64,000 nt of DNA. Source: Cytophagaceae bacterium. Its GTDB lineage: Bacteria > Bacteroidota > Bacteroidia > Cytophagales > Spirosomataceae. Below the pieces are notes generated by a model that was given only the letters and a program-made list of their open reading frames with translations, did no database searches and was not told the DNA's origin. The stretch spans positions 310,001 to 374,000 of the forward strand of contig JAIXWQ010000009.1 of the NCBI GenBank assembly GCA_027491195.1. The letters are read 5' to 3'. A program made the position numbers and the translations under genes. Shown piece by piece: positions 11,379-12,642 of this stretch. The stretch's first letter is position 1; the number at the start of each line of letters is the position of its first letter.

Positions 11379-11624
11379 CTAATCCGCAGACTCGGCACTA
11401 GCCCTTTTCTTTTCAATCTTCTTGATATTCCAAATATACAGCGTCTCCACCTTCGCTCTCGCCCACGGCGTTTTGCGCAAGAAAGTCAAACTGGATTTGA
11501 TGCTCGGATCACTCGCAAAGCAATTAATGCGAATCTTTTTCGCCATCTCCTCCCAGCCTAATAGATCGACTAGGTCGGTTAATATTTTCTCTAATGTGAC
11601 GCCGTGTAGTGGATCGTTGCTCAT
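11379..11624 (-). CDS. VF530 family (DUF2132) protein
   Basis: This small 81-aa protein begins [19 protein letters not shown] and contains [13 protein letters not shown] and [17 protein letters not shown], the pattern of the VF530/DUF2132 family. A member from Vibrio fischeri has a solved fold and was proposed to bind DNA; the role is not established. It is the last gene of the kdsC operon and overlaps the preceding gene by 4 bp. The basic C-terminal tail is ordinary for the family. Confidence 0.88.
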
Positions 11625-12142
11625 GAGGAAGGATTAGAAAACCAAGACGCATATTCCACATAATTATAGGCGGTGCGTTTGAAAACTTCGGCCGCGTCTG
11701 GGCTCACATCTTTTAAATATTTCGCAGGATTTCCTGCATAAATCGTTCCTGCTGGAACGCGGGTTCCCTGCGTGACAATGGCTCCGGCAGCAATAATGCT
11801 CCCTTCTTCTATGTAGGCATTGTCCATCACGATGGCCCCCATTCCGATGAGCACATTATCTTCGATAGTGCATCCATGTACGATCGCATTGTGAGCGATG
11901 GATACGTAATTGCCGATGGAAGTGACGGTTTTTTGGTAGGTACAATGTACCACGGCGCCGTCTTGAATATTGGAATAATCGCCGATGCGGATGGAGTTTA
12001 CATCGCCGCGAACGACCGCATTGAACCAAATGGTGCAATGTTTTCCGGTCTGCACATCGCCTACTACGGTGGCATTAGGAGCCACCCAATTGTCTTCTCC
12101 GAAGGAAGGGGAAACCCCTTTTACTGGTAAGATTAGGCCCAT
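11621..12142 (-). CDS. gamma-carbonic-anhydrase-like hexapeptide-repeat protein
   Basis: The protein has 173 aa and forms a left-handed beta helix of hexapeptide repeats (for example [36 protein letters not shown]). The His ligands of the gamma-class carbonic anhydrase zinc site are in place: [13 protein letters not shown]. The family (YrdA/CaiE/PaaY-like) holds zinc or iron, and carbonic anhydrase activity is proven in only some members. It overlaps kdsC by 10 bp and the VF530 gene by 4 bp, so all three are translationally coupled. Cytoplasmic. Confidence 0.88.
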
Positions 12143-12642
12143 TTTCCTTGTAGTTTAAGCACTTTTTTTTTTTTTTTTTTTACCGCGCCACGACCCCCAT
12201 TGAAGGGCGAAACGTATTTTACGACCTGGTGCAATTCGGGAATCGCATCGGCCGGACAGGTACTTAAAATATCCGGTCTTGACATGATTTTTAGATCTGC
12301 CATGTCGTCGCCCATGTAGAGGATTTCGTTTTCTTTAACGCCTAATTTAGGCAATAACTCCAGGTAGGTTTCTAATTTATCTTTGCCGCCTAGCCCGAAA
12401 TAGATGTGTTGAAACTTCAGGTTTTCTAAGCGTTTTTTGACTCCCGCATGACTTCCGCCGGTAATTACACACATCGTATAATTTGCCTCGCGCGCCTTTT
12501 CTAGTGCATAGCCATCGCGGATGTAGAAAGTGCGGAAATGTTCGCCCGTTTCGAGCACGTGTACATTGCCGTCCGTCATGACGCCGTCGATGTCAAAAAT
12601 GAAGACTTTTATATCGCTGAATAGGGAAAGTACGTTAGACAT
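12133..12642 (-). CDS. kdsC: KdsC-like 3-deoxy-D-manno-octulosonate 8-phosphate phosphatase
   Basis: This 169-aa HAD phosphatase (subclass C0, no cap) should dephosphorylate KDO-8-P for lipopolysaccharide core synthesis. Motif I is FIFDIDGVMTDG, motif II is VITGG, and motif III/IV is YMGDDMADL. The C-terminal tail, which in KdsC reaches into the neighbouring subunit, starts normally (SPFNGGRGAV) and ends normally (VLKLQGKW). Between them six lysines are encoded by a 19-base homopolymer (12163-12181), where relatives usually carry a mixed-sequence helix. The tract is either a real slippage-prone site or an assembly error. The gene overlaps the next one by 10 bp. Confidence 0.85.
   Translation of the reverse strand: MSNVLSLFSDIKVFIFDIDGVMTDGNVHVLETGEHFRTFYIRDGYALEKAREANYTMCVITGGSHAGVKKRLENLKFQHIYFGLGGKDKLETYLELLPKLGVKENEILYMGDDMADLKIMSRPDILSTCPADAIPELHQVVKYVSPFNGGRGAVKKKKKKVLKLQGKWA
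12163..12181. repeat. 19-base homopolymer inside kdsC
   Basis: There are nineteen T on the plus strand, read as A on the coding strand. The tract gives six consecutive Lys codons near the C-terminus of kdsC. A change of one or two bases would shift the frame across the coupled kdsC/gamma-carbonic-anhydrase junction. No other run near this length was seen in the window. Confidence 0.95.

Follow-up and report, generated by a model that had tools for sequence, protein, structure and literature searches.

The window (the whole 64,000-nucleotide stretch of DNA that was analysed; GC content 44%) carries kdsC and a gamma-carbonic-anhydrase-like ORF on its minus strand, and the second of these begins within the last kdsC codons (Table 1). 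The 169-aa kdsC ORF scored 119.1 bits against the NCBIfam model TIGR01670 (YrbI/KdsC), above the cut-off of 106.95, and was matched by KdsC chains from the PDB. Its score against the equivalog NF007019 was 126, below the cut-off of 208. The best NCBIfam model for the neighboring ORF was NF050158, with 153.5 bits under a cut-off of 250. The original prediction placed a 19-base homopolymer in the 3′ part of kdsC, and this was borne out: a T19 run with C and A as flanking bases occupies exactly positions 12163–12181 of the forward strand. In the kdsC sense, this A19 tract is translated in frame. The KdsC tail has been said to contribute to activity in the oligomer; our literature search on this tail returned nothing on its role.

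Table 1. Coordinates of the kdsC locus (window numbering) and of further long A-tracts (contig numbering)
Feature	Position	Strand	Remarks
A19 tract (kdsC sense strand)	12163–12181	−	ungapped against 12/12 related kdsC loci; most likely overwritten as an artefact over up to ~16 bases, with a natural A-run at its end
kdsC (3-deoxy-D-manno-octulosonate 8-phosphate phosphatase)	12133–12642	−	uninterrupted frame; the tract supplies six Lys codons
gamma-carbonic-anhydrase-like hexapeptide protein	11621–12142	−	context only; start overlaps the kdsC end
kdsB (3-deoxy-manno-octulosonate cytidylyltransferase) tract	C5:148657–148673		near the gene end; reads as five lysines
recG tract	C10:144177–144193		inside the gene; reads as five lysines
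G159 tracts	contigs C12, C23, C65, C69, C97, C106, C123, C176		loci within L130–L142, L223 and L224
G159 tracts, continued	contigs C190, C200, C202, C205, C215, C243, C245

Long A/T runs in the genome and their in-register alignment with relatives

Besides the kdsC tract, the longest A/T run in the window was 8 bases. The whole assembly (2,488,393 bases in 14 contigs, 98% complete) contains 171 runs that are exactly A8 and just seven that reach 10 bases or more, with lengths of 10, 10, 10, 11, 17, 17, and 19; no run of 12–16 bases was found in the whole-genome count. Those of at least 14 bases are the tracts of kdsC (19), kdsB (17), and recG (17), each within coding sequence, and the four remaining long runs sit outside conserved ORFs. 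Under a geometric tail, at most about 0.009 runs of at least 17 bases and 0.001 runs of at least 19 bases would be expected per genome. The kdsC run is thus far off the run-length distribution of this genome and beyond chance. The count of G/C runs of at least 8 bases gave no counterpart, as only a G9 and a G8 were found. All seven A/T runs of at least 10 bases read as T on the forward contig strand (P = 0.016), unlike the A8 runs, which are split evenly between the strands (88 and 83).

The deposited tracts were aligned with related loci base for base. All 26 alignments were ungapped through the tract (12/12 for kdsC, 7/7 for kdsB, and 7/7 for recG), with flanks 72–86% identical; the nearest relatives were chosen for these alignments, and some of the kdsC rows represent one genome that is present in two collections. 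At the positions of the tract, the relatives have bases other than A at 9–12 of 19 positions in kdsC, 4–6 of 17 in kdsB, and 7–8 of 17 in recG. The kdsC tract was found in none of the 29 other loci (30 kdsC loci were listed, including this one). In all 29, the tail after GGxGAV is mixed in sequence, as had been claimed for KdsC relatives, and it reads RDVIEK in the nearest ones. The corresponding KdsB site is EKIQK or EKILK in close relatives and EKIKK in more distant ones, and the RecG site is EESEK in close relatives, with the IEESE stretch overwritten in this genome. The motif filter applied to these two genes showed 10 of the 29 other kdsB loci and 8 of the 29 other recG loci. Therefore, the same anomaly recurs at three unrelated sites of one assembly and is missing in the relatives compared. 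Judging from these relatives, of which the nearest are ~82–86% identical in DNA, the organism's own DNA would carry ordinary codons at the tract. The constant length points to a base-wise error in the reads or the consensus rather than to an insertion.

A matching signature in other assemblies

Among 38 genomes of the genus, A/T runs of at least 14 bases were absent from 33. The genus is probably Aquirufa, because one of its genomes (G099) matches NZ_SEWZ01000002.1 (Aquirufa antheringensis 30S-ANTBAC) in position. Besides the three runs in the genome studied here (G000), five were found in G090, one in G153, one in G156 (an A15), and seventeen in G159. The A14 runs in G153 (position 995 of L128) and G159 (C106:847, L225) have matching flanks and lie beside a terminator-like stretch; these two look natural from their sequence context, in contrast to the tracts within genes.

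Sixteen of the G159 runs are A16–A19 tracts, and the nine that were aligned overwrite normal codons in register. These nine, together with one tract of G090, were compared with G147, G141, G070, and G041. The alignment was ungapped in 29 of 30 rows, and the sole gapped row belonged to a distant relative at 71% identity. The replaced codons in G159 include those of UvrA after CPDC, of the end of glycerol kinase (GlpK), and of aspartokinase/homoserine dehydrogenase; an NCBIfam scan of eight fragments left five without a nameable match or with no match at all. A contig end is no more than ~120 bases away from four of the 17 tracts of G159 (P ~0.0015, calculated from rounded values of genome size and number of contigs). 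The G159 draft is fragmented (about 290 contigs) and 87% complete, so error is the natural reading of its tracts.

The five tracts of G090 are 16–18 bases long. One of them, an A17 at positions 990–1006 of L124 (G090:C3:49450–51450), lies in a 401-aa ORF and is an in-register coding overwrite relative to G041 and G070. Of the others, three (L123, L125, and L126) are in no long open frame, and that of L127 lies where an open frame ends. These four gave no row against the loci gathered as relatives of the other tracts. The G090 tracts may be mostly natural.

The artefact-like tracts are 16–19 bases long, and their shape was compared at the 13 aligned sites (three in G000, nine in G159, and one in G090). 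The non-A bases of the nearest relatives span no more than 15 bases at 12 of these sites; at L135 they span 17. At 11 sites, the tract has a natural stretch of four or more A at its 3′ end, with the first L134 tract and L135 as the exceptions, whereas only 1.1% of random windows end in this way (P about 3e-20 for 11/13). Because the blocks are short and so many terminate in such a natural A stretch, the error is systematic.

In a survey of the phylum, runs of A16 or more were found in 49 of 392 genomes. In the 30 loci inspected, most tracts have only a short open frame around them or none. Two are at contig ends (L191 and L196), one is in a 166-aa frame (L201), and those of L192, L194, L202, L213, L214, and L219 are near the start of frames of 115–325 aa. 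The kdsC locus was the only one of the 30 with a recognised gene and conserved sequence on both sides of the tract, with relatives compared for kdsC alone. Long A-runs by themselves are thus not rare in the phylum, and kdsC stands out by having conserved codons overwritten.

Origin of the kdsC tract

Since two more genes of this genome and a second assembly from the genus show the same kind of overwrite, a processing error is the most likely origin. On these sequence comparisons, the kdsC run is very probably an in-register sequencing or assembly artefact of the draft genome and not a feature of kdsC. In the kdsC sense, a block of up to ~16 bases that directly precedes a natural A-run (on its 5′ side) would have been turned into A's in the consensus as deposited. 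Since such an overwrite keeps the length, the frame is preserved and six lysines are encoded. The tracts share with known consensus and assembly errors of draft genomes that they are assembly-specific and missing in close relatives, that the coding is otherwise normal, and that those of G159 are enriched at contig ends. They differ in that the in-register substitution covers a whole block, whereas homopolymer errors usually insert or delete one or two bases. Some observations speak against an artefact. The genome is a good one, with 98% completeness in 14 contigs, and single-read errors should have been outvoted. Moreover, two of the three tracts are in Kdo genes, which has a probability of ~2e-5 for a six-gene set named beforehand, although this set was chosen afterwards; the named G159 genes show no Kdo theme.

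The original prediction offered an assembly artefact, a phase-variation switch on LPS, and a transcription-slippage site as the three options for the tract. The first is strongly supported by the in-register overwrites in three genes here and in nine aligned G159 tracts. The other two find no support: the three genes keep their reading frames, the tract is missing from every other kdsC listed, and its length in kdsC matches that of the replaced codons exactly. If the tract were a real contingency locus, slipped-strand changes in its length would act as an on/off control of KdsC and, via kdsB, of the Kdo pathway. Runs as long as A19 and A17, if real, would be prone to mutation, the Kdo genes kdsC and kdsB carry two of the three, and known phase-variable loci likewise have a homopolymer within a surface polysaccharide synthesis gene. 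However, slippage changes length and phase variation needs a variable or recurrent repeat, neither of which was seen in the alignments. The tract recurs in 0 of the 29 other kdsC loci listed, A14 runs are missing from 33 of the 38 genomes of the genus, and the tract length equals that of the replaced codons in 26/26 alignments of three genes, unlike the drifting, arbitrary length of a slippage-grown repeat. In further contrast to phase-variable loci, the third tract is in a DNA-repair helicase gene (recG), and the G159 set falls in unrelated housekeeping genes. The Kdo pathway supplies a lipopolysaccharide core sugar, and the switched gene would be the only kdsC match of this genome among the loci listed, which also argues against a switch. 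Phase variation is therefore highly improbable.

Equally improbable is a real poly-A tract with transcriptional slippage and mixed frames in the style of insect endosymbionts. Genes with poly-A tracts and slippage are known in Blochmannia and Buchnera, and these share with kdsC a long A-tract inside a protein gene. In the accessible part of that report, the tracts belong to small AT-biased genomes, arise by AT bias and indels, in some cases reach 12 bases, and are discussed for genes that are out of frame (PMC3017870). In contrast, the window has a GC content of 44%, the tracts are 17–19 bases long with nothing at 12–16, and kdsC, kdsB, and recG are all open and in frame as deposited, so that no frame would have to be restored by slippage. 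Frames and lengths are conserved here, and the kdsC tract is present in one genome only.

A further alternative is a real mutational process that preserves length. In some Aquirufa-like bacteria, such a process would turn up to ~16 bases 5′ of A-runs into A, including in Kdo synthesis genes. It would account for the kept length and the anchoring at natural A-runs at 11/13 sites, with the signature present in G000, G159, and a single gene of G090. On the other side, the signature is missing from 33 of 38 genus genomes, strikes residues that relatives keep (in UvrA, RecG, and KdsC), and is enriched at contig ends in G159. To our knowledge, no enzyme rewrites the bases 5′ of A-runs into A at constant length. 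We regard this process as very unlikely, if marginally less so than slippage of either kind.

With an artefact as the preferred reading, several steps are candidates for its cause. A block of no-calls converted to A would fit a ~16-base block anchored in an A-run, and so would a primer-like poly-A sequence at natural T-runs. Priming of this oligo(dA)-like kind may be the cause, as it accords with both the anchoring and the orientation of the blocks, but no such library step is known for this genome. A zeroed 32-bit word, which corresponds to 16 bases stored as 2-bit A, may also be the cause. It fits tract lengths of at least 16 and the short overwritten spans, but leaves the 11/13 endings on natural runs of at least four A unexplained, and the same holds for any random blanking of bases. 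A pile-up of poly-A reads under a mismatch corrector is unlikely, because some blocks are nearly without A in the nearest relatives (10 of the first 11 bases in UvrA are not A) and poly-A reads would not align there. In the accessible parts of three reports, isolates of the genus were sequenced as NovaSeq 2×150 reads and assembled with SPAdes (PMC10821818, PMC11861422, and PMC12528234). Our literature search found no publication that describes this exact error.

The error class is detectable in public draft genomes as A16–A19 tracts in conserved genes that are in register with relatives. As deposited, the UvrA, glycerol kinase, and aspartokinase/homoserine dehydrogenase sequences of G159 are unfit for use, and this assembly needs care. 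For the biology of the organism, reading the kdsC run as an artefact would prevent a false LPS phase-variation switch from entering the literature.
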